48,191 nt of DNA from Thermoproteota archaeon (GTDB lineage Archaea > Thermoproteota > Thermoprotei_A > EX4484-217-1). Below the pieces are notes generated by a model that saw only the letters and a list, made by a program, of their open reading frames with translations, searched no databases and had not been told where the DNA came from. A program made the position numbers and the translations under genes. The DNA lies in NCBI GenBank assembly GCA_029258915.1, contig JAPDJU010000011.1:1-48191 (forward strand). Reading direction: 5' to 3'. The stretch's first letter is position 1, and each line of letters starts with the position of its first letter. This document shows, one piece after another, positions 19,188 to 47,863 of this stretch.

Positions 19188-20441
19188 TTAAGATAGTGGT
19201 GTCGGCTTATATCCTAATATCCTTGAGATAAGCAGTGTACATGCATTGTCTCCTGAAACGTTAGTTGCTGTTCTCAGAGCATCCGATATAGGATCGACAA
19301 CTAACATTATAGCAATACCTTCTAGCGGCAGACCGAATGTAGATAGCATTATAGCTAACATTATGGGTCCAGCACCTGGTACAGCAGCGCAGGCAGCTGA
19401 AACTATAACTGCCATAGTCATTAGTAGGAATGCTTGGTGAGCGCCTATTGTAATTCCGAACAGCTGCGCAATAAACAGTGTAGATAAGGCTTGATAAAGC
19501 GCGGTACCATCCATGTTTACTGTAGCTCCTATTGGTAGTGTTAACCGGAATATTTCATCTCTTACACCCATACGTTTAGCAGCAGCCATGTTGTAAGGTA
19601 GTGTTACTGCGCTGCTTCTAGTAGAGTAAGCGACTAAGAATGGCTCTGATTGTTCTTTATAGTATTTTAGCGGATTAAGCCCTGCTAGGAAAACTATTGG
19701 CGTATATACGAAGAGTACGTGGACAGCTGTGAGGCTATATTGGGCAGCAAGGAATTTGCCGTAAGCTCCTAGCATTGCTGGACCATAAGTGCTTATAAGC
19801 CATACAGCATATCCGAAAACAGCTACAGGAGTATACCACATTATTACTCTTAGCGTTCTTATCATAAGATCAGACATTATGTCAAAGAATTTTGCTATAG
19901 GTCTACCCCTATCACCTAAAAGTACTATACCAATACCTAATATTATAGCTATTAATATTAATGTAGGTGCGCCTTTCACTGTGAACAAGTGATAAAGCTC
20001 CGGCTTAAAGAAGTACAATATCAGTTCTTGTGGAGAAAGAGGCTTCGGTGGCGTATACTCCTTGGGCAAAGGTAGTGTAACACCCTCACCGGGTCTAAAA
20101 ATCGATGCCGCCACTATACCTAGTCCAGCAGCTATATATGAGGTAATTACGTATAGTATTAGGATAAGTCCTAGTGTTTTACCCAATCTTCTTAAATCAG
20201 CTATTGTACATACCGCTGCAGTTATAGTGAACAATATAACTGGCGGTATAATGATCTTTATTAGCCTAACGAGAATGTCGCCTAGCACTTTAAACCATGA
20301 AGCATATGCTGGCCTAATTTCCTCAGGTACTGTGTAAAGAATAGCGAAACCCATAGTAAGGCCTACGAGGAAGCCTATGGCTATTAGTATGACCAGCAAA
20401 TATCTTCTAAAAACACTAGGTCTAGACAAGGGAAACCCCAT
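19188..20441 (-). CDS. DAACS family dicarboxylate/amino acid:cation symporter
   Basis: This is a 417-residue GltPh/DctA-type carrier. Hairpin 1 has the Ser-rich STRSSAVTLPYNM, helix 7 carries GATVNMDGTALYQA (the NMDGT cation/substrate site), hairpin 2 contains AVPGAGPI, and helix 8 reads DALRTATNVSGDNA with the Arg that in GltPh binds the substrate's second carboxylate. Uptake of glutamate, aspartate or C4-dicarboxylates driven by Na+ or H+ is expected. A second, more GltPh-like paralogue lies at 26800. The serine motif here (SSAVTLP instead of SSSGTLP) differs, which may shift substrate choice. No partner gene is in operon with it. Confidence 0.9.
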   Translation of the reverse strand: MGFPLSRPSVFRRYLLVILIAIGFLVGLTMGFAILYTVPEEIRPAYASWFKVLGDILVRLIKIIIPPVILFTITAAVCTIADLRRLGKTLGLILILYVITSYIAAGLGIVAASIFRPGEGVTLPLPKEYTPPKPLSPQELILYFFKPELYHLFTVKGAPTLILIAIILGIGIVLLGDRGRPIAKFFDIMSDLMIRTLRVIMWYTPVAVFGYAVWLISTYGPAMLGAYGKFLAAQYSLTAVHVLFVYTPIVFLAGLNPLKYYKEQSEPFLVAYSTRSSAVTLPYNMAAAKRMGVRDEIFRLTLPIGATVNMDGTALYQALSTLFIAQLFGITIGAHQAFLLMTMAVIVSAACAAVPGAGPIMLAIMLSTFGLPLEGIAIMLVVDPISDALRTATNVSGDNACTLLISRILGYKPTPLS

Positions 20442-24847: not shown

Positions 24848-26728
24848 ATGGTCTCGAAAAAACTATTGACACGAAGTAATCTAGTGTATGTAGTGGCAGT
24901 ATCGTGGGCTCTCTTCCAACTTTACGCACTTATCTTTTTAATTGACATTTTACTTTTAAGGATAGTTCATGTAACTTTTGCCTTAATTCTCGCATACCTG
25001 ATTAAACCTTTAAGAAAACCTTTCGACAGAATCATTGACCCTATACTTATAGTTTTAGCTATAATTACATGCGGCTACTATGCGTCAATAATTGATTTAA
25101 TAGCTGAAAGAATACCCTACGTAACTCCTTTAACAACATATGATCTAATATTTGGCTCTCTACTGATAGCTCTTACTGTAGAAGCTGTAAGGAGAGCTGC
25201 TGGTAAAATTTTAGCCTTATTTATAACAGTATTTATCCTATACTGGCTATTTGGCCCCCTACTGCCTGGAATCATACATCACGATCTTAGCCCTAGACTA
25301 ATTTTTGAACAAATTAGCTTAAGTACTGCCGGTATACTTGGCTTCCTAACATACATTTCTTCAACATTCGTTTACCTATTCATTCTATTTTCAGCTCTAC
25401 TTTACGGTACAGGTATAGGCAGGTTCTACATTGACTTAGCATTAGCAAGTGTTGGTAAAACTAGAGGAGGAGGCGCTAAAGCAGCTATAATAGCTAGTTC
25501 ACTTTTCGGCACTATTTCAGGAGCATCAGTATCTAACGTATTAGCTACAGGTACTTTTACAATCCCGTTAATGAAGAAGCTAGGCTATAAACCGGCACTT
25601 GCAGGAGCTGTTGAAGCTATAGCTTCAACTGGAGGCCAGTTAATGCCTCCAATAATGGGTGCTGCCGCATTCATAATAGCTGAAATTCTAGGTGTAGACT
25701 ACCTTTACGTATGTATTGCCGCTGCTGTTCCAGCAATTCTCTACTACATAGCTTTATTTGTAACAGTAGATTTAATAGCTCAGAAAGACGGTTTAGTAGG
25801 GGTTAAGCTGAGCTCCTTTGGCTGGAGAAGCATAGTTAAAAACTCTTACCTACTCATACCTCTCATAGTTTTAATTTACAGGCTAGTAGCTATTAAGGCT
25901 CCGTTAAGAGCTATTTTAGACTCTATCATGGTTACAATTGCTCTAATAGTAATTAAAACGCTAATTATTGAAAGGAAGCCTAGAAACTTAAAGCTAATTT
26001 TCGACTCGCTACGTGACGGCAGTGTTAACGCAACAACTGTCGCATGTATTTTAGCAGGTATAGGTATTGTCGTAGGCGTTATTACTATGACGGGGTTAGG
26101 TTTGAAAATAACTAGTGGAATAATCTATGCTTCACAAGGAAATCTTGCATTGATCCTTATTTTAACCATGGGCACATGTCTACTGTTAGGTATGGGTATG
26201 CCTACAACAGCAGCATACATTTTAACAGCTTCTATTGCAGCACCTCTACTAATCGGGTTAGGGTTTAGTAAGTTAGCTGTACACTTATTCATATTTTACT
26301 TCGCAATCCTATCAGCTATAACACCCCCAGTTGCTGTAGCAGCATATGCTGCTAGCGCATTAGCAGGGTCTAACATTTATGAAACAGGTTTATTAGCGTT
26401 TAAACTAGGATTAGCAGCATATATAATACCCTACATTTTCCTAACCTACAATGACCTAATCCACCCGTCAATACAGACAATAGTTTACTTTACACTAACA
26501 CTGTTAGCGCTAACATCACTATCAATAGCTGTAACAGGGTATTTGAAAGGAAAACTAAGTGCTCCATGGAGAATAGCGTTTATAGCATTGACACCAATAA
26601 TACTAATGCCTCAGCCAATGCTGAGCATAGCTGGAACCATAATTTTTGCAGTACTAGTTGTAAGTAGAATATTTAAGTTTAAACAGCTACGCCGCTCTCC
26701 CACATACAGCTCTAAAAAGCCACCCTAG
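24848..26728 (+). CDS. TRAP transporter fused permease (DctQM, TAXI type)
   Basis: This 626-residue membrane protein joins the small (DctQ-like) and large (DctM-like) TRAP subunits, as TAXI systems do. The first four helices (about 1-110) correspond to DctQ. The rest holds the DctM core with GTISGASVSNVLATGTFTIPLMKKLGY and GQLMPPIMGAAAFIIAEILGV (first half) and GMGMPTTAAYILTASIAAPLL and ITPPVAVAAYAASALAG (second half). It couples solute uptake to a Na+ or H+ gradient. It forms an operon with the binding protein. The length is typical and no break is seen. The downstream gene is convergent. Confidence 0.9.
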   Translation: MVSKKLLTRSNLVYVVAVSWALFQLYALIFLIDILLLRIVHVTFALILAYLIKPLRKPFDRIIDPILIVLAIITCGYYASIIDLIAERIPYVTPLTTYDLIFGSLLIALTVEAVRRAAGKILALFITVFILYWLFGPLLPGIIHHDLSPRLIFEQISLSTAGILGFLTYISSTFVYLFILFSALLYGTGIGRFYIDLALASVGKTRGGGAKAAIIASSLFGTISGASVSNVLATGTFTIPLMKKLGYKPALAGAVEAIASTGGQLMPPIMGAAAFIIAEILGVDYLYVCIAAAVPAILYYIALFVTVDLIAQKDGLVGVKLSSFGWRSIVKNSYLLIPLIVLIYRLVAIKAPLRAILDSIMVTIALIVIKTLIIERKPRNLKLIFDSLRDGSVNATTVACILAGIGIVVGVITMTGLGLKITSGIIYASQGNLALILILTMGTCLLLGMGMPTTAAYILTASIAAPLLIGLGFSKLAVHLFIFYFAILSAITPPVAVAAYAASALAGSNIYETGLLAFKLGLAAYIIPYIFLTYNDLIHPSIQTIVYFTLTLLALTSLSIAVTGYLKGKLSAPWRIAFIALTPIILMPQPMLSIAGTIIFAVLVVSRIFKFKQLRRSPTYSSKKPP

Positions 26729-26799: not shown

Positions 26800-28077
26800 T
26801 TAGCTGCTTCTGCTCCACACCCCTGAAGTTAAGTCTATTTCGCCTTCTGTCTTCGCAACAATTATTGTTCCAGTTAGGTCTCCTGTAACGTTAACCATTG
26901 TTCTACCCATATCTAAGATAACATCAATACCTGCAATCATGCTGTAAGCTAGTGCTACAGCTGGGTCTGTTAAAGGCAGTCCTACAGCTTCAAGTACCAT
27001 AGCTAACATTATGAGGCCAGCGCCGGGAACTCCAGCTGTACCTATTGATGCTAGAACAGCTGTTAACACTATAATGAACTGTTTATCGATACCTAACGGT
27101 ATTCCTAAAGCATTAGCTATGAATATCGTACATATTGCCTGGTACATTGCAGTACCGTCCATGTTTATAGTGGCTCCTAATGGCAGTGTGAAGGAATACA
27201 CGGACCTGCCTATTCTGAAGTTTTGATCTGCAACAGTCATTGTTACTGGTAGAGTTCCTGAACTGCTTCTCGTTACAAACGCCGTTAACATAGCTTCCCT
27301 AGCTCCCTTCAGGAAAGTAAGAATGCTTAGTTTGAAAGCCCCTAAAACACCGCCGTAAACAAGGAATATATGTATAAACAATCCTACGTATAACGCTATA
27401 ACAACTATGGCTAATGGCCCTAAAACCCCTGGCCCATATTTAGCAACAACATATCCTATTAAAGCAAATACACCTATAGGGGCGTACTGAAGAACTCCTC
27501 TAACTATCTTATATATACATTCAGCTAAACCGTCAAATATTTGGTAAACAGTGTTAGCAGCTGCTCTTACTCTCTCTATCCTACTTTCTCTTAAATAGGC
27601 TATGGCAATTCCCAACACTATTGCGAAGAATATTATCTGCAAAACCTTCCCTTGCATTAAAGCTGCAAACGGGTTTGTCGGTATTATGTTTAAAAGTACT
27701 TCAACCATTGATGGCGGCGGTTTCACAGTTACTTCTTTAGCTTCTCCAGCCAACTGCAAGCCAACACCTGGTCTGAAAACATTAGCCATAGCTATACCAA
27801 TAACTACTGCAACAGCTGAGGTAACTAGGTAATAGACTATTATTTTAATACCAACCTTACCTAACCTAGCCGGCGAAATACTTGCAGCACCAATAACCAA
27901 TGAGAACAGAATTATTGGTGCTACAATCATTTTTAATAATCTAATAAACAGGTCGCCGAGAGGCTTTATAGCGGCTATAGGTTCACCAATTATTGCGCCG
28001 ATAATAATGCCCAGAACGAAGCCGATTAGTATTTTGTAGATAACAGGGTACTCAAGGTACCTCTTAAACCAGCTCAT
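26800..28077 (-). CDS. DAACS family glutamate/aspartate or dicarboxylate symporter (GltPh-like)
   Basis: This symporter of about 425 residues is close in motif to GltPh of Pyrococcus. It has [12 protein letters not shown] in hairpin 1, [14 protein letters not shown] in helix 7, [10 protein letters not shown] in hairpin 2, and helix 8 [20 protein letters not shown], which carries the GltPh residues for the amino group (Asp) and the side-chain carboxylate (Arg). Na+-coupled aspartate/glutamate uptake is the best guess. The open frame reaches an ATG at 28098, but AGGTG lies 8 nt before the inner ATG at 28077 ([12 protein letters not shown]), so I use that start. It is convergent with the TRAP operon and a paralogue of the 19188 gene. 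Confidence 0.9.
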
Positions 28078-28308
28078 GCAGAAACACCTACTAAACAAAA
28101 CTCTGTAGACACTGTTAAAAAATCTTTACTTTAAACCACTTGTGCAGAAGTCTATCAAATATGTACTGCTCACATCAATAACTAGGACACCACGGTAACA
28201 TGGGATTGTAAATGAATAGGCAGAATAGGCGAAGTAGATTCTCTTTTCTTATATTGTATTTGAAAAGTTGTCTTAAACAAGAATATTCCATTTTAGAAAA
28301 TATTTAAT

Positions 28309-38275: not shown

Positions 38276-39319
38276 ATGAGTGCAGGCAGTCTTGAAATAA
38301 GAGTTTCACCTTTTAACCGAAGCAGAGTGAGCATAATAGCCATAGGTAGGAAGCTTCGCTTCAAACAATATAGAGAGAAAGTGTATGTTTCTGCTAAACA
38401 GTTTTGCCCTTTTTGCCCAGGAAATGAAGAATACACTCCACCAGCTATTCTCGTACTAACTAAAGAGATGACATTTAAAAAAGACAGCAATGGTTTTAGA
38501 GTTAGAAATTGGCTTGTAAGAATTTTCCCTAACGAATACCCAGCATTAAGTAGAAACATTAACGTTAGAGCCGGGAAAAACAAGTATACAGCATATGGCT
38601 ACCATGAGGTTATAGTAGAAACGCCTCTACACGAAGAAGATATGTACCTTGAAAAAACAGAGCATACATACTATGCTTTCCTAGCTTTAAGAAAAAGAAT
38701 TAAAGAAATAATTAACGATCCTAATATTGAAAATATTTTGGTTATAAAGAATTCAGGGTTTAAAGCAGGGGCAAGCATTAAACACCCTCACCTACAATTA
38801 TTCGCTACTACATTTACACCTCCCATTATCGCTAATGAGATTAAAGGGTTTAAAGAATGTATGGAGAAACATGGCAAATGCCCTCTATGTGAAATAGTAG
38901 AAAAACAATCACCTAGAACAGTGCTGGATACAAAATATTTTAAAGTAGAAACAAGATACGCGCCTCAACAACCATACGAGCTCATAATCATACCCAAAAA
39001 ACATGAGAAAAACATGTTAAAAACGAGTAATGAAGAACTAAAGGATTTAGCATGGATACTGAACAGTATTGTAAAAACGTTAAAACATGTCTTAAAGAAA
39101 AATAGTATAAACTATAACTACTGGATACATATGGTTTTCAAAAACATAGGAGAATACCATTGGCATATAGAATTACAACCTCTAATCGAAACATGGGGAG
39201 GCTGCGAGAAAGGTAGTGGAGTCCACATTGTAACAGTAAAACCTGAAGACGCCGCAAACAAACTTAGAAAAAACCTTAAAAGAATACTGCAAGGCTGTAG
39301 AAGTCATAGAACAGTATAG
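38276..39319 (+). CDS. GalT-like (HIT superfamily) hexose-1-phosphate nucleotidyltransferase
   Basis: The 347-residue protein has the two-half GalT fold. N-terminal zinc ligands are in FCPFCPGN (44-47), followed by RIFPNEYPALS. The catalytic HPHLQ (170-174, nucleophile H172) follows a KNSGFKAGASIK loop. A second CPLC (202-205) and a closing YHWHIELQP complete it. GalT exchanges UMP between UDP-glucose and galactose-1-phosphate; related archaeal and plant enzymes act on ADP-glucose. HPHLQ rather than HPHGQ suggests a different acceptor. Its place after treT suggests it recovers glucose-1-phosphate from the NDP-glucose TreT releases. AAAGGT lies 9 nt before the ATG. Confidence 0.83.
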   Translation: MSAGSLEIRVSPFNRSRVSIIAIGRKLRFKQYREKVYVSAKQFCPFCPGNEEYTPPAILVLTKEMTFKKDSNGFRVRNWLVRIFPNEYPALSRNINVRAGKNKYTAYGYHEVIVETPLHEEDMYLEKTEHTYYAFLALRKRIKEIINDPNIENILVIKNSGFKAGASIKHPHLQLFATTFTPPIIANEIKGFKECMEKHGKCPLCEIVEKQSPRTVLDTKYFKVETRYAPQQPYELIIIPKKHEKNMLKTSNEELKDLAWILNSIVKTLKHVLKKNSINYNYWIHMVFKNIGEYHWHIELQPLIETWGGCEKGSGVHIVTVKPEDAANKLRKNLKRILQGCRSHRTV

Positions 39320-39493: not shown

Positions 39494-40852
39494 TTATGCT
39501 CCATAATATGTAAACATTACGAAGTCTCCTACACCTGTCTTTTCAATAATACCGTATCTTGTTACCCATCCGCCAGCTCCATTAGCTCTTCTTACAGCTC
39601 TACCGTCGAAGCCTGCTATTTGGCCGTTAACTATAGTGTATGCTGCATATTTTCTAATAGGATCAACGATTACGACGTTAGCTCTAGCACCGGGCGATAG
39701 ATTTCCTAGCTCCTTAACCCACCATTCCTGCCCTGTTCTTTCAGCTAATAGTTTAGCCGGGTTATACGTCATTGTTGCTACGGCATCTACTAGGCTTAGT
39801 ACGCCTTTTTCTGCAAGTTCAAGTATTGCAGGTATGTTGTCTCTAGTATCTCCGAAACCTTTCATTGTAGCGTCTGCTTCGCCATCAGATATTAGTATGT
39901 TTACTATACCTTTCTTTAATGCTTCATAAGCAACTTTCTGGGCTTCAGGATCCATGAATACTGCGTCTCTAAGGCCTCTAGCCGTTGTTAAATGTGTTGT
40001 AACGAATTCAACAGAAACATTAGGTTTCTTAGCTAACTCAACAATTCTCTCCATATTTCCAACAGGGTCTCCGTGGGAACCAAAAGCAACAGCTGTTGCA
40101 TGCCCTAAATGTACCGGTCTCTTACCTGCAATATCAACAACTCTTTCAGCATGGTCTGGACATTGAGTGTGACTCATGAAATGCATTTTTACTCTATGAG
40201 CTATTTCTATAACTGCATCTAAGCCTTCATCACTTAATATGAAGTGTCCCATATGGTCTTTAATGGCTACAGCTAGAGAAGCTGTACGTACAACAATTCT
40301 ATTTCTTGAAATTTTGGTTAATGCTTCTTCTTCATCCATTTCTCCTTTAAGAAACCTTATCTTATCTTCTACGGAAGCTCTTGGAGCAAGTAATGCTGGA
40401 GCTCCTATAAAGCATCCAACGTTTAAAGGTAATCCTCTATCAACTTCAGCACCTAGAAGGGAAGGAGCCATCAGGGTGTTTCCGGCTCCAGCAGTTAACA
40501 CTACGGTATCTCCATGGGCGACAGCGCTATATGCGGGAGCAGTAGTTACTTCAAATAGATCATAAATATGCATATGAATATCTATCAAACCTGGAAATAC
40601 GTATAATCCTTTAGCATTAATTATTGCATCTCCTTTTTCAGGAACAATCTCGTCTCTAACTTCTTCAATTTTACACCCTCTTATAGCAACATCTTTAATA
40701 GCATCTATCTTGTTAGCGGGATCTATAACTCTACCTCCCTTAATTATTAACCTTCCCGTAGGCTTAATTACTTTCAATGGGTCGTAGAGTTTGTTTTCCT
40801 TAACAGATGCCAGCATATTAGGAAGTTGGGCTACTTTAACTCTATAAGACAC
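39494..40852 (-). CDS. Dihydroorotase-like amidohydrolase/deacylase
   Basis: This is a 452-residue metal-dependent hydrolase. After an N-terminal beta segment (RLIIKGGRVIDPANKIDAIKD) comes FPGLIDIHMH with the HxH metal pair, then IVVRTASLAVAIKDHMG, HFMSHTQCPDHAERVV and VHLGHATAVAFG with further His ligands, ILISDGEADATMKGF with the catalytic Asp, and a C-terminal beta segment (SPGARANVVIVDP). It resembles amidohydrolase/deacetylase family proteins that act on cyclic amides or N-acyl compounds. Start GTG has GGGTGA nine nt before it. It is divergent from an unusual duplicated membrane protein with a closely similar leader (GGTGA-TTCTTGTG), so the pair may import and hydrolyse one compound. Confidence 0.8.
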   Translation of the reverse strand: MSYRVKVAQLPNMLASVKENKLYDPLKVIKPTGRLIIKGGRVIDPANKIDAIKDVAIRGCKIEEVRDEIVPEKGDAIINAKGLYVFPGLIDIHMHIYDLFEVTTAPAYSAVAHGDTVVLTAGAGNTLMAPSLLGAEVDRGLPLNVGCFIGAPALLAPRASVEDKIRFLKGEMDEEEALTKISRNRIVVRTASLAVAIKDHMGHFILSDEGLDAVIEIAHRVKMHFMSHTQCPDHAERVVDIAGKRPVHLGHATAVAFGSHGDPVGNMERIVELAKKPNVSVEFVTTHLTTARGLRDAVFMDPEAQKVAYEALKKGIVNILISDGEADATMKGFGDTRDNIPAILELAEKGVLSLVDAVATMTYNPAKLLAERTGQEWWVKELGNLSPGARANVVIVDPIRKYAAYTIVNGQIAGFDGRAVRRANGAGGWVTRYGIIEKTGVGDFVMFTYYGA

Positions 40853-40901
40853 AAGAAGTCACCCATGAAAGGATAGGTTATAAAAATATTTTATGTTTTG
40901 T

Positions 40902-41021: not shown

Positions 41022-41057
41022 TATAAATAATTTTATTTGATATTCACCATTAGGTGA
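41022..41057 (+). promoter_or_regulatory. TATA box and small hairpin over the ribosome site of the duplicated membrane protein
   Basis: TATAAATA (41022-41029) predicts transcription from about 41046-41050. TCACC (41044-41048) and GGTGA (41053-41057) form a short hairpin with an ATTA loop. The 3' arm is the Shine-Dalgarno sequence for the GTG at 41064. Depending on the exact transcript start, this hairpin may or may not be in the mRNA. Confidence 0.45.
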
Positions 41058-41063
41058 TTTCTT

Positions 41064-42275
41064 GTGAGTAAACATAAGGAAATTATTGTTTCGCCTGAGG
41101 AACTAAGAGCAGCTATTATGGGATATATTATTGCGTTAGCTATAGGTTTTGCTCTTTACGCATTAATGGTAACTTTGCCCACTGGAGAATATTGGCTACC
41201 TTACGGAGAAGTTGCTGCTAAAGCTGTAACAGACGCGTTCTATAGGTTTATATGGTTTATTGAGGATATGACTGAAGCACAATTCTATGCAAGTGTTCCT
41301 GCAGGCATATTTCTCTGCGTTTTCGGTTTTATAGCCTGGTATTTTGACAAGGTAAAGTCTAAGTATGCAGGTTTCTCAATAAGTTACGGTACCGGATTGT
41401 GGCCATGGGTTTTCGTAGCTCAAACCTTAGGCCTCTTTGTCTCAGTTTACGTATGTAATTACCTTGAAGTATTAGCACACACTGATTTCGGCTGGGTACC
41501 AACATTTGTCCCTTTCGTAAGCATACCGCCAGCAGTTATTTTCGTATATGGTAAAGGATGGAAAAACGTTCTAACAGGAGCAGTACTTGGCGGGATAGTA
41601 GGTTTCCCGATAGCATGGTTTGTTATAGACAAGTTGCTTAGACCTTGGGAACTACCTGCAGTTATAGGTAATGTTACAGGAATGTGGGTTGGAACAATAG
41701 CTGTACTTGAAATCTGCAGATACCTGCCATGGATGAAGCTTCCCTCAAGCTCTAATCCTTCAAAAGAAGAAAAGAAAGATCCACCACAAATAACAATAAC
41801 AGTTACATGGTTCTTAAGAAGAGTATTAGCTGACTTCACTGAGGCACAGTTTTGGGGTAATGAAATAGCAAGTTTAGGCATGATATTTGGAGCTATACTA
41901 AGCTGGTTCCTTGATCCAAAACATATAGCGTATGCTTCAGTACTATTCCCAGCAATATTTGCATCGCAAGTTGTAGGTTCCGCTACAGGCATACTACTTT
42001 ACCTTAAATGGTGGAAAATAAAAGGATGGTACCCAACATTTGTACCAGTAGTCAGCGTAGGGCCAGCAGTTGTACTAACATTCGGCGGAAGCATCCCGAT
42101 GATCCTCGCAGGAGGAATCCTAGGAGGAATAATAGGACCAGTAATAGCAGACCTAATAATAAGATCGCTTCCAAAAGGATGGCACCCAGTGATAGGCAAC
42201 ACATTCTCAATGGCCTTTACAACAGCACTAGTAGTCTCAGTAATAAGATTCTTCTGGGCATATGGCCTAGTATAA
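41064..42275 (+). CDS. Multi-pass membrane protein with internal tandem duplication, putative transporter
   Basis: The 403-residue protein has roughly ten hydrophobic segments. Two halves are clearly related: DMTEAQF (68-74) and DFTEAQF (257-263); WVPTFVPFVSIPPAV (144-158) and WYPTFVPVVSVGPAV (322-336); LTGAVLGGIVGFPIA (170-184) and LAGGILGGIIGPVIA (348-362); LPAVIGN (197-203) and WHPVIGN (373-379). A charged linker (about 224-242) separates them. Such twofold repeats are typical of transporters, and the conserved Asp/Glu/Gln and Pro/Gly positions would be functional. I do not recognise a named family. It is divergent from a dihydroorotase-like amidohydrolase, which suggests a transported amide or cyclic ureide; that is inference. 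Start GTG follows AGGTGA. Confidence 0.75.
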   Translation: MSKHKEIIVSPEELRAAIMGYIIALAIGFALYALMVTLPTGEYWLPYGEVAAKAVTDAFYRFIWFIEDMTEAQFYASVPAGIFLCVFGFIAWYFDKVKSKYAGFSISYGTGLWPWVFVAQTLGLFVSVYVCNYLEVLAHTDFGWVPTFVPFVSIPPAVIFVYGKGWKNVLTGAVLGGIVGFPIAWFVIDKLLRPWELPAVIGNVTGMWVGTIAVLEICRYLPWMKLPSSSNPSKEEKKDPPQITITVTWFLRRVLADFTEAQFWGNEIASLGMIFGAILSWFLDPKHIAYASVLFPAIFASQVVGSATGILLYLKWWKIKGWYPTFVPVVSVGPAVVLTFGGSIPMILAGGILGGIIGPVIADLIIRSLPKGWHPVIGNTFSMAFTTALVVSVIRFFWAYGLV

Positions 42276-43324: not shown

Positions 43325-43786
43325 CTATAGTAAATCTCTAAGACTCTTAATCTTAAACTTAGGGTTTGCCTCCTGAACAATTTTCTTAAATTTATCCATA
43401 GCAGTTAATTCGTGAATATCGCTATCTTCAGTCACTAAGATGTCAGCACAGTTAATAGCTGATGAGAGGATGAGGCAGTCTATGAAGTCGTTTAGTATAT
43501 TTCTTAGCTTAAACGCTACTAGTAATATTGGAGTATCATGGATTGGTACTTTACGTATCCTGTCATCACGCACTATAGCTCTTATCCCTGCAGTTACTCT
43601 TGCTGGAGTAAGTAGTCCGGAAGCTACGTATTTAGCTCCTTTAGCTGAAATCTCGAATAATGAAATTTCACTAATAAGTATTTTATATCCTTCTCTAATC
43701 AACTTAATGACACTGTTTCGAGGAATCTCCTTAACAGATATTCCTACTGCTGGCAAAAAGTAGGTGGTGTCTAGTAGTAGCTTCAT
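43325..43786 (-). CDS. vapC: VapC-type PIN-domain toxin
   Basis: This is a 153-residue PIN domain, a probable Mg2+-dependent RNase toxin. Acidic active-site residues appear in order: D6 in KLLLDTTYFL, Glu in ISEISLFEIS, Asp in NDFIDCLILSSA and the last acidic group in ILVTEDSDIHEL. The start overlaps the antitoxin stop by four bases (ATGA), the classic vapBC coupling. Archaeal VapC toxins cut tRNA or rRNA; the target cannot be predicted. The length is normal and nothing is broken. Confidence 0.88.
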   Translation of the reverse strand: MKLLLDTTYFLPAVGISVKEIPRNSVIKLIREGYKILISEISLFEISAKGAKYVASGLLTPARVTAGIRAIVRDDRIRKVPIHDTPILLVAFKLRNILNDFIDCLILSSAINCADILVTEDSDIHELTAMDKFKKIVQEANPKFKIKSLRDLL

Positions 43787-44185: not shown

Positions 44186-47100
44186 CTACTTCCTCTTGAT
44201 AACGTATATTATTATACCTATGAGCGCAACGGATAGTAGAAGTATGGCTAGTGTTTCGGTGGAGATCTTTAGGATTTTCTCGGTGACAGCGGGTGTTGTG
44301 GTAGTCTCTGGCGCGGGCTTAGCTAGCTCGATGTATACTAGTTCGTCTTTTAACTCGTATTCTGATAGATCTACTTCTCCAATTTCCTTACCATACATGT
44401 CTACTAGGTAGGCGCGTCCTTCGAGTGGTAGTTTACCTTTACCCCATGCTACATAAATTACTTTGTTCTTGAATTTGAATTCAGCTAGGAATGGGTTCTT
44501 AGAGATTATTCTGGCTTCATTAAAGCCATCTATCATTTTAATTAACGTTTTGTACGCGTAAAATGCTGGTTTTCTTCTACCATCTACGTCTATTAGACAT
44601 GAGTGTTTTAGCCCTTCTGGGAAGTACTCCTTAGCTTTAAGCTCGGATGGGGAAACCTTAGCTATACCTTTTGCTAATGCGTAAACGTAGCTTTTAACTA
44701 AAGCTTCTGCGACTTCTTCTTCGCTTCTTTCAAGCTTTTTCTCCATTCCACCGAACTGTGATTCAGTAACCCATATCTCAATGTTTTTAAGTCCTAGTTC
44801 CTGTAGAATCTCCATTAACCTATCTACTTCCAAGTAATCTACGTAGCTATGGTAGCTTAGGAAGTCGAATTTTAAACTGTTCTCCTTTAAGAAACTTAAA
44901 TACTCCCTATCAGGGCCGATAAAGGAGGATGGGGAAACCTTACACTCACTACAAGCTTCCTTAATAGCTTCATAAGCTTTAACATAGTATTCTTTATATG
45001 TTTCTAGGCTCCATTCAGGTCTACTATGGATTTCATTCATAATCTCATAATGTCTAACTGGGAATTTTAGTTCAGACATATCGTTTACTCCGTCGCCATC
45101 ATAGCGTTCGACAACTTCTTTAACTCGTCTAGCGAATTCGTCTGGAGGTATTTCGGGGAATGGGAGATCTATGATTACGTGAAGTATTATTCCAGCTTTC
45201 TGACATGCCATAACCTGGTTATCCATTGGCTTAAAGTCTGGGTTTAATATGTCGAAGCCTGCTCTCTTCCATGTTACACCCAGCTCTGCCATTGCTTTGA
45301 AATCTATACTTTCCAGCCCTCCGCCTCCAAACCTGCCTTTAACTGCTTCTCCGTAGCTTCTCTCAACACTTGGTACTTTCTCTAACTCAATCAACGGTAG
45401 TTTTTTAGGAAGCTCTTTTGGAGCACCTTTAGCTTCAGCAATCCATGGCTCGAATGGTCTTAGAAATTCTGGAACCTCCCCGCCCTCAACGTATTCAATA
45501 AAGCCTTCTCTTACAAGTTTCTCCGGTTTAGGGGCTGGTTCCACAAATCTAGTCGGTATTCTCGCTAAAAACGAATAGTGTATATCGCAACCAACCATAG
45601 TCCAAATGTATTTACCATCAAACTTTATTCCCCAAGGATGTAATTGAAAGTTATCATAGTAGTAAAGGCTGACAAACTCTAAGTACTCATCTGGTGGTTG
45701 CTCACCATACTTAGGCAATCCATGATAGATGAATATACCGTATAAGTCTGTTATGAACAGGTATTTTCCATCGTAAAACACGTAGTGAGGACCTCTCAAC
45801 ATTGGTTCTTTTGGTTTTATAATTAAATCAGGCTCTGAATCATTAGTTAGCTTTGAAATGTTAAAGTAGACTAAGACTCTTGAGTTTATATGTTGAGCAA
45901 CAAATAACATGTCCTTATATATGAATACGTGAAATGGCTCTATTATTGGCTCTCCAGCTGCTTTCGTTAATACAACATCTGGTTCTTGATTATCTCTAGT
46001 TGGCATAGACTTCCAAACTAATACCATGCTATGGTATCGGTCGGAAGATACTGCTGCTAACTTTCCATCTTTACAAGATATACCACTTGCTGCACCACCG
46101 AAAATAACACCGTACTTACCAATCTCTTTTATCGTAATATCTGGTTCTCTTGGCTCATCTGGTATTTCATTATATATTCCAATTGTTCCTCCTTTCTCAA
46201 TTACACATAAATGTTTGCCATCACTACTAACATCAACACCACCTAAACCGCCACCCATTGGCCCTCCAAGGTACCAATCAGCATACTGATAGTTCTCTCT
46301 TGGCAGTTCGTTAAATACCGCTACGTATTCTTGGCCGCAAACAAACATTTTATTATCCACTATTTCTAAGCCGTACTTTGGATTTCTCGGCCATACGGCT
46401 CCGCCAATTATGTAGTCTGCACTTAATCCATTTTCAAGCTTTGATAAATTATAGATTAGAACAGCTGAGCTATAAAACCCTTTATCCAATACTATTAGCC
46501 AATCATCAGTTGCTTCTATTCCTCTTGGTACTGCTAAAGCATCTTTACTTGGAACCTGTTTTGCATATGTTTCTTCAAAACTTCTCCTACCAATAACATA
46601 CTTGGCAAGCATTCCGTTCTCAAACTTATCCTTTTCAAAAACCAGCACCCTGCCAAAATCATCAGTTATGAATAAGTACTTACTATTTGATGCTACATCA
46701 TATACTCTATTACCATATATCCTACCTCTCGGATCTTCAACTTGCTCTTTACATTCAAAGTCTTTATATCCTATAACAAAATCGGCAGGTGCATGGTCTC
46801 TCAGGTTTTCTTTCTTCCATATTAAAACCCTATTTGCAAACACTTCAGAAACGTAAACATATTTATCATCAACATCTATTCCTACGGGACCGCAAAAAGT
46901 TGTTCTTGAACACTTGCTAACACCTTCTTCACCTAACACTATATAGTCTTCTCGTTTGATCTCGAACTTTTCATCTTTTGATAAGGGGATTTTTTTGAAT
47001 ACTACTACAGTATCATGCTTAACAACATATAGCCATTTACCATCCCATGCAATATCTCCAATTTCTCCTAGTGGAAAATCAATATCTACTTCGGCGAAAT

Positions 47101-47644
47101 AAGGGTCACCGATTACTAAATCTGGTTCTTCATAGTTTTTAGTTGGTATGTGATTGTAGATTAAAATCCTTCCATTAACACCGTCTGCTATAAATAAGTA
47201 TTTACCATCCGTTGCTATACCGGTAGGCGATGTTAAACCATTTCTCTTCTTGCTTGGTATTCTAGTGTAAAAATCTGGTTGACCTAACACTATTTTCGGT
47301 TTTAACCCTTTATTATTAGTTATGTTTTCCAAATCGTAAACTAATACTCTATAGTTATTACTATCTGCTATGAATAAATATTTACCATCTGTTGCAACAC
47401 CATCCGGTGCAAGATTGTCAAAGTTTAAGTCGTTAGGACCAGCAACATATGTTGGCCACTTAGGTGTCATAGCAACCATGTCAATAACTGGTTTATCGGG
47501 TAGTAATTTTTCATACTGTTCCTCCTTCAACCAACCGGTTTCAGGCTGAACACTTAAGATAACATTGCTGTTTACCATTTGAGGCATATATGATAACAGT
47601 AAAACGATAACTACTAAGCTAAAACATATCTCCCTTCTATACAT
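44186..47644 (-). CDS. Large cell-surface protein: beta-propeller repeats plus glycosidase-like domain
   Basis: The product of about 1150 residues has a signal peptide (CFSLVVIVLLLSYMPQMVNS), a long NHL/propeller region (about 60-690) with repeats such as GVATDGKYLFIADSNNYRVLVY, and a (beta/alpha)8 glycosidase-like domain (about 790-1050). Clan GH-A acidic residues are at E875 in YEIMNEIHS and E965 in WVTESQFGG (numbered from the longer start). A beta domain, a Thr-rich linker (ETTTTPAVTE) and a C-terminal membrane helix with a KRK end follow. It should sit on the outer face and bind or cut sugar chains. The frame opens at TTG 47656, but GGGAGAA before ATG 47644 favours that start. Confidence 0.8.
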   Translation of the reverse strand: MYRREICFSLVVIVLLLSYMPQMVNSNVILSVQPETGWLKEEQYEKLLPDKPVIDMVAMTPKWPTYVAGPNDLNFDNLAPDGVATDGKYLFIADSNNYRVLVYDLENITNNKGLKPKIVLGQPDFYTRIPSKKRNGLTSPTGIATDGKYLFIADGVNGRILIYNHIPTKNYEEPDLVIGDPYFAEVDIDFPLGEIGDIAWDGKWLYVVKHDTVVVFKKIPLSKDEKFEIKREDYIVLGEEGVSKCSRTTFCGPVGIDVDDKYVYVSEVFANRVLIWKKENLRDHAPADFVIGYKDFECKEQVEDPRGRIYGNRVYDVASNSKYLFITDDFGRVLVFEKDKFENGMLAKYVIGRRSFEETYAKQVPSKDALAVPRGIEATDDWLIVLDKGFYSSAVLIYNLSKLENGLSADYIIGGAVWPRNPKYGLEIVDNKMFVCGQEYVAVFNELPRENYQYADWYLGGPMGGGLGGVDVSSDGKHLCVIEKGGTIGIYNEIPDEPREPDITIKEIGKYGVIFGGAASGISCKDGKLAAVSSDRYHSMVLVWKSMPTRDNQEPDVVLTKAAGEPIIEPFHVFIYKDMLFVAQHINSRVLVYFNISKLTNDSEPDLIIKPKEPMLRGPHYVFYDGKYLFITDLYGIFIYHGLPKYGEQPPDEYLEFVSLYYYDNFQLHPWGIKFDGKYIWTMVGCDIHYSFLARIPTRFVEPAPKPEKLVREGFIEYVEGGEVPEFLRPFEPWIAEAKGAPKELPKKLPLIELEKVPSVERSYGEAVKGRFGGGGLESIDFKAMAELGVTWKRAGFDILNPDFKPMDNQVMACQKAGIILHVIIDLPFPEIPPDEFARRVKEVVERYDGDGVNDMSELKFPVRHYEIMNEIHSRPEWSLETYKEYYVKAYEAIKEACSECKVSPSSFIGPDREYLSFLKENSLKFDFLSYHSYVDYLEVDRLMEILQELGLKNIEIWVTESQFGGMEKKLERSEEEVAEALVKSYVYALAKGIAKVSPSELKAKEYFPEGLKHSCLIDVDGRRKPAFYAYKTLIKMIDGFNEARIISKNPFLAEFKFKNKVIYVAWGKGKLPLEGRAYLVDMYGKEIGEVDLSEYELKDELVYIELAKPAPETTTTPAVTEKILKISTETLAILLLSVALIGIIIYVIKRK

Positions 47645-47863
47645 AATTTCTCCCAAAATTGATCTAATTACCTTTTTCTAAAAATTCTTTTTTATCCGCA
47701 TCTTAAATCAAAACAAATCCTAAAATATGGTAAATGTTTTAGCAGGTATTTGCACTAGGACGATAATAATACTATGATGCTATCTAAATAGAACGGGTAT
47801 ACGGGAATAGGCGGTAGAATTATTACGTATTTCCCTTAACTTAAACTTGTTTGGTGGTTTCCC

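Follow-up and report, generated by a model that had tools for sequence, protein, structure and literature searches.

To our knowledge, amide uptake in bacteria and archaea is poorly known, and AmiS/UreI is the main named candidate for it. Urea transporters (UT) are homotrimers that conduct urea. Each chain has a first half, Pa and T1a-5a, and a second half, Pb and T1b-5b, with opposite orientations (PMC4357013); 10 transmembrane (TM) helices and two P helices have been described (PMC10541013). In dvUT the residues E187 and F190 belong to the So filter (PMC4357013). What makes a urea channel work is the removal of urea by urease (PMC2868824), and UT-B was also reported to conduct formamide, acetamide and other urea analogues (PMC12839047). 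UreI and AmiS form a six-helix family of another fold (PMC2868824); AmiS/UreI is a small membrane protein found beside amidases, for which amide uptake has been proposed (PMC10392092).

The window analysed here, a stretch of 48,191 nucleotides, is contig C9 of the 1.6-Mb genome of a Thermoproteota archaeon. It carries a gene for a 403-aa membrane protein and, on the opposite strand, a gene for an enzyme of the amidohydrolase superfamily, with the following features.

41064..42275, + strand: 403-aa membrane protein with a GTG start (open reading frame); unnamed family, predicted UT-like fold
41094..41174, + strand: extra N-terminal TM helix, residues 11-37, outside the repeat and the UT plan (model helix, hydropathy)
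41235..41717, + strand: first half, residues 58-218, half-helix Pa and T1a-T5a (model helices, repeat alignment, positive-inside fit)
41271..41285, + strand: TEAQF motif of half a (E71, F74), proposed pore/filter position (conservation; alignment with UT Q-x-x-F by hhalign, not significant alone; spacing of dvUT E187/F190)
41802..42260, + strand: second half, residues 247-399, half-helix Pb and T1b-T5b, inverted relative to the first (model helices, repeat alignment, positive-inside fit)
41838..41852, + strand: TEAQF motif of half b (E260, F263), proposed pore/filter position (conservation in relatives)
39494..40852, - strand: 452-aa amidohydrolase-superfamily enzyme, partner of the membrane protein (PF01979, E 9e-13; identity to enzymes of the bacterial neighbourhoods)
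40859..40863, - strand: Shine-Dalgarno GGTGA of the amidohydrolase gene (sequence)
41022..41029, + strand: TATAAATA, likely archaeal TATA box of the membrane protein gene, as read from the sequence
41053..41057, + strand: Shine-Dalgarno GGTGA of the membrane protein gene (sequence)

The membrane protein consists of two related halves

The two halves of the 403-aa protein were 33% identical in BLASTP (53/161, 82.8 bits, E 1e-24), and their Smith-Waterman alignment scored 208, against 41 +/- 7.6 in 1000 shuffles (z = 22). Half profiles built from 80 relatives aligned with each other at 99.9% probability (E 5e-36). An earlier note on this DNA had reported that D(M/F)TEAQF, PTFVP-VS--PAV, GG-I-G and P-VIGN occur in both halves in the same order, and this observation was confirmed. 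In the T/S-E-x-x-F motif of half a, E71 was present in 78/80 and F74 in 74/80 relatives; in half b, E260 was present in 77/80 (D in the remaining 3) and F263 in 80/80. Four charged residues located within or close to the membrane half-helices, R252, R253, D257 and E267, were found in all 80 relatives, and H374 in 77/80.

Nothing above noise was obtained when the 403-aa protein was searched against Pfam, NCBIfam and PDB sequences, and the 80 relatives gave sub-threshold, chance-level matches against Pfam. Two candidates, Pfam ThrE for the family (33 members, best E 7e-4) and photosystem I subunit XI for the 403-aa protein (E 0.014), were rejected as matches of TM-helix composition. The family appears as 'hypothetical protein' in those annotated plasmid records that were inspected, and no description of it was found in searches of the literature library used; it is unnamed and has no Pfam or NCBIfam model. 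The statement that the protein belongs to no named transporter family thus holds at the level of sequence and profile, but not for the predicted fold, which is the known one of UT.

Relatives are bacterial and the gene was likely transferred

The family was opened by tblastn on plasmids; patterns from the single sequence were too specific for the genome contigs. Six bacterial relatives with 36-40% identity were obtained from plasmids, their alignment yielded 276 candidate bacterial stretches in genome contigs, and 80 loci kept from these made up, together with the 6 plasmids, a set of 86 bacterial loci. The relatives belong to Bacillota, Rubrobacter, Actinomycetota and Pseudomonadota, including Clostridium, Tissierella, Bacillus timonensis, Lachnospiraceae, many Actinomycetota and many Pseudomonas, and a relative from Paenactinomyces shared about 50% identity with the window protein.

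Among 229 genomes of the class to which the archaeon belongs, only that of the host has the membrane protein. The host apart, 398 genomes sampled from the phylum gave no convincing match once weak matches with E above 1e-3 had been discarded. In the tree the window protein grouped with the Bacillota set with 100/99 support, on a long branch. Since no archaeal relative was found, the gene was likely transferred from bacteria; both this direction and the age of the transfer are what we infer. We think it unlikely that the contig is a contaminant: the best relative of the gene at 38276 comes from the same genus (54%), the GC3 of the gene pair fits the window, and the contig also carries an archaeal-type XPB-like helicase and a Thermococcales-type TreT.

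Other genes of the window were recorded as well. A PIN-domain protein (PF01850) is encoded at 43325-43786 (-), and a 1156-aa protein at 44186-47656 (-) shows NHL/beta-propeller-like repeats, a second part that is glycosidase-like by eye and a C-terminal anchor-like helix; no relative of it was found in the 20 nearest genomes. Two paralogues of DctA/GltP-type dicarboxylate or amino acid symporters lie at 19188-20441 and 26800-28098, with a fused TRAP permease at 24848 near them.

The predicted fold is that of urea transporters

The AlphaFold2 model made with the 80-row alignment had a pLDDT of 94.3 and a pTM of 0.93; a single-sequence model had a pLDDT of 42, and nothing was read from it. The model contained 11 TM segments, namely the N-terminal TM helix, Pa with T1a-T5a and then Pb with T1b-T5b, where T3 of each half is a short, broken helix (149-162 and 327-340) that we took to cross the membrane. 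Inside loops held 12.3 K/R per sequence and outside loops 1.8, which fits the inverted topology.

When the model was compared with 350,542 PDB chains by Foldseek, ranks 1-5 were all UT (UT-B, dvUT, UT-A and zebrafish UT) with probability 1.00, TM scores of 0.48-0.52 (query) and 0.54-0.61 (target), an E-value of 3e-3 and an rmsd of 6-7 A, and from rank six onward the TM score was about 0.15. The viral structure library gave no match to the model. The comparison of a predicted structure, which the note had put forward as a check, therefore led to the UT fold and to no other, and this fits its idea of a carrier for an amide or ureide.

At the sequence level, a set of 29 true UT proteins was used for comparison. 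Full-length hhalign against UT gave a probability of 0.5%, which is not significant, and its only local alignment paired the TEAQF segment with the GQ-x-x-F segment of UT. PF03253 was absent among the matches listed for the 80 members (first 25 families, E up to 10). Repeat-unit profiles aligned with UT in collinear register with a probability of 3.6% (P 0.012 local, 0.007 global), and the controls, reversed UT and MFS, gave P 0.12-0.75. The E-x-x-F of both halves has the same spacing as E187/F190 of dvUT, an equivalence that rests on a non-significant alignment. The filter Thr of UT T5 (LPxxTxPF) is absent in the new family, and the conserved H374 lies near that place.

These alignments are suggestive, not proof, of a remote homology to UT, and for this reason a UT-like fold is claimed here and not membership of PF03253. 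The fold, as modelled, is supported by computation, and the protein probably works like a UT.

Relatives of the membrane protein recur beside C-N hydrolases

Genes in the 86 loci were predicted by a weighted call, clustered and identified by Pfam; longest-ORF calling misses the focal gene in GC-rich genomes, and an HMM survey that depends less on gene calling was also carried out. In this survey a C-N hydrolase was found within 2.5 kb in 75/86 loci and within 400 bp in 71/86. The clusters used to build the HMMs had been recognised by their closeness to the focal gene, so these counts are not blind. Distance served as the internal control: hydrolase clusters accounted for 53% of adjacent genes against 0.6-1.8% at positions 3-5. 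Pseudomonas contributed 35 of the 86 loci; with loci collapsed at the genus level, the link was seen in 25/31 groups. Recurrence of the homologues beside hydrolases, for which the note had proposed a survey, was thus borne out.

The hydrolases came from six unrelated families, namely nitrilase-type (CN_hydrolase), amidase, asparaginase, amidohydrolase (Amidohydro_1), M20 and acetamidase/formamidase. The first five were the commonest non-regulatory neighbours by Pfam, and acetamidase/formamidase (FmdA_AmdA) stood beside the membrane protein in 2 loci. No surveyed hydrolase was nearby in 11/86 loci, from Mycolicibacterium/Mycobacterium, Actinoplanes-type genomes, some Arthrobacter/Paenarthrobacter and Saccharopolyspora; 2 of the 11, as in Saccharopolyspora, have a gene of the arginase family, whose enzymes are likewise C-N hydrolases. 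The family, its repeat, its predicted fold and its gene linkage are all supported by computation.

In Pseudomonas locus L043 (4945-6891) and about 27 other Pseudomonas loci, a 648-aa FAD enzyme is encoded two genes upstream of the membrane protein, in an array of FAD enzyme, nitrilase-type hydrolase, membrane protein and asparaginase-like gene. The FAD enzyme is tryptophan 2-monooxygenase-like (PDB 4iv9, E 1e-29), shows no visible signal peptide and is predicted to be cytoplasmic; the array is possibly an amide-forming and amide-cutting cluster.

The archaeal pair also exists in bacteria

The position of the amidohydrolase gene given in the note, 211 bp away on the other strand with a divergent start, was correct, and PF01979 (E 9e-13) supported the class of the enzyme. 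The very amidohydrolase family of the window was recovered from bacteria as well: the window enzyme clusters with 13 bacterial enzymes encoded near membrane protein homologues in Rubrobacter, Clostridium, Tissierella, Bacillus and Lachnospiraceae, which upholds the proposed pairing. It was 51-55% identical to the 10 of these 13 that were aligned, with the HxH (H93, H95), K198, H228, H248/H251 and D323 invariant. Eleven loci have the order PucR regulator, amidohydrolase, M20 deacylase, membrane protein, and in 2 Rubrobacter loci the amidohydrolase follows directly downstream of the membrane protein. Against NCBIfam equivalogs the window enzyme scored at best 81 bits with a cut-off of 371, far under the cut-offs for dihydroorotase, hydantoinase and allantoinase, and PDB dihydroorotases aligned mainly with its N-terminal part.

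The spacer between the two divergent genes has 19% GC. An Rfam search gave no match. The near-identical leaders that the note had pointed out are present (GGTGAcTTCTTGTG and GGTGAtTTCTTGTG, each made of GGTGA, a spacer and a GTG start), but they carry no weight as a signal: they are ordinary Shine-Dalgarno sequences with a start codon, and such motifs precede 14/34 genes of the window. The inverted repeat that the note had placed between the genes amounts to the two divergent leaders face to face or to weak arms in the AT-rich spacer, and needs no special explanation.

Proposed function and alternatives

The membrane protein stands nearly always beside a C-N-cutting enzyme and has a UT-like predicted fold, so an import-and-digest pair for amides is probable. 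We regard the protein, with fair assurance, as a facilitator of UT fold, of an unnamed family, that supplies a cytosolic hydrolase with small neutral amides or ureides. Transport itself, its direction, the substrate and the oligomeric state we infer. The protein would be channel-like, with two inverted halves of a half-membrane P helix and five TM helices each and one extra N-terminal helix. A small neutral amide or ureide would enter the cell through it down its gradient, and the cytosolic amidohydrolase encoded alongside would cut the C-N bond, trapping the nitrogen and maintaining the gradient, just as urease maintains that of urea channels. Elsewhere the same channel family would serve nitrilase-type amidases, amidases, asparaginases, acetamidase/formamidases or M20 deacylases. 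By analogy, the logic of urea channel and urease with an amide hydrolase in place of urease is the simplest account.

The same scaffold could instead hold an active amide carrier coupled to protons or sodium, as might be expected from the invariant R252, R253, D257 and E267 and the nearly invariant E71 and E260 in or near the membrane half-helices. However, the sole solved fold that matches is that of passive channels, and among the matches listed no ion-coupled carrier exceeded a TM score of 0.25, so we consider active transport unlikely. Quite unlikely, too, is that the protein releases or conducts a product, ammonia or acid, and does not import the amide. The partner enzymes do yield ammonia or an acid, and UT-B conducts ammonia too (PMC12839047). 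The monooxygenase-like enzyme upstream in Pseudomonas, being predicted cytoplasmic, may moreover form the amide inside the cell, so the inward direction proposed here is tentative. Against product release, M20 deacylases need not release ammonia, ammonia passes membranes largely unaided and has its Amt channels, and the UT fold has an amide-sized slot.

If the protein transported nothing and acted as a sensor in the membrane or as an assembly factor in hydrolase operons, its gene might likewise lie near those of enzymes, and a LacI- or PucR-type regulator is often nearby; but the protein has no signalling domain, those regulators are soluble, and the symmetric transporter-type fold is predicted over the whole length, which makes such a role very improbable. 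Nor do we give appreciable weight to an accidental pairing in the archaeon, in which the link drawn by the note would be coincidence. The genes are divergent here and do not form one operon, and only a single class genome has the membrane protein, yet the same two families adjoin in 13 bacterial loci.

Taking the facilitator reading further, we lean, somewhat less firmly, towards an undescribed UT-fold channel family that is widespread in bacteria and present in at least one archaeon, adapted to amides or ureides other than urea and partnered with C-N hydrolases that differ between lineages, the archaeal pair being a transport-and-hydrolysis module that moved across domains. If the protein is a UT-fold amide channel, the urea-transporter fold would extend beyond urea, many pathways that rely on amidases or nitrilases would gain a named uptake step, and E71, F74, E260, F263 and H374 would be clear residues to probe.

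Comparison with known systems

The partner enzyme shares PF01979, the HxH and the conserved Lys/His/Asp metal-site residues with the dihydroorotase/hydantoinase/D-aminoacylase group of the amidohydrolase superfamily, but it falls below all NCBIfam equivalog cut-offs and forms a separate subgroup.

The likeness to AmiS/UreI lies in a membrane protein beside amidases for which amide uptake is proposed. With 11 TM segments in the model and no Pfam match, the new protein falls outside UreI/AmiS. On the Rhodococcus and Prescottella plasmids (L011, L014) the new membrane protein with its amidase lies a few genes from AmiS/UreI with a second amidase; the two are therefore distinct families.

With UT/SLC14 (PF03253; dvUT, UT-A, UT-B, Yut), the new family shares the predicted fold of two inverted halves of a P helix and five TM helices, an E/Q-x-x-F motif in a putatively equivalent place at the P helix of each half and a gene neighbourhood that includes a hydrolase for the likely cargo. 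It differs in having no significant sequence or profile similarity, in its extra N-terminal helix, in LPxxxHPxIGN in place of the UT LPxxTxPF and in its link to amide hydrolases, and true UT and the new family co-exist in Pseudomonas and Bacillus genomes.
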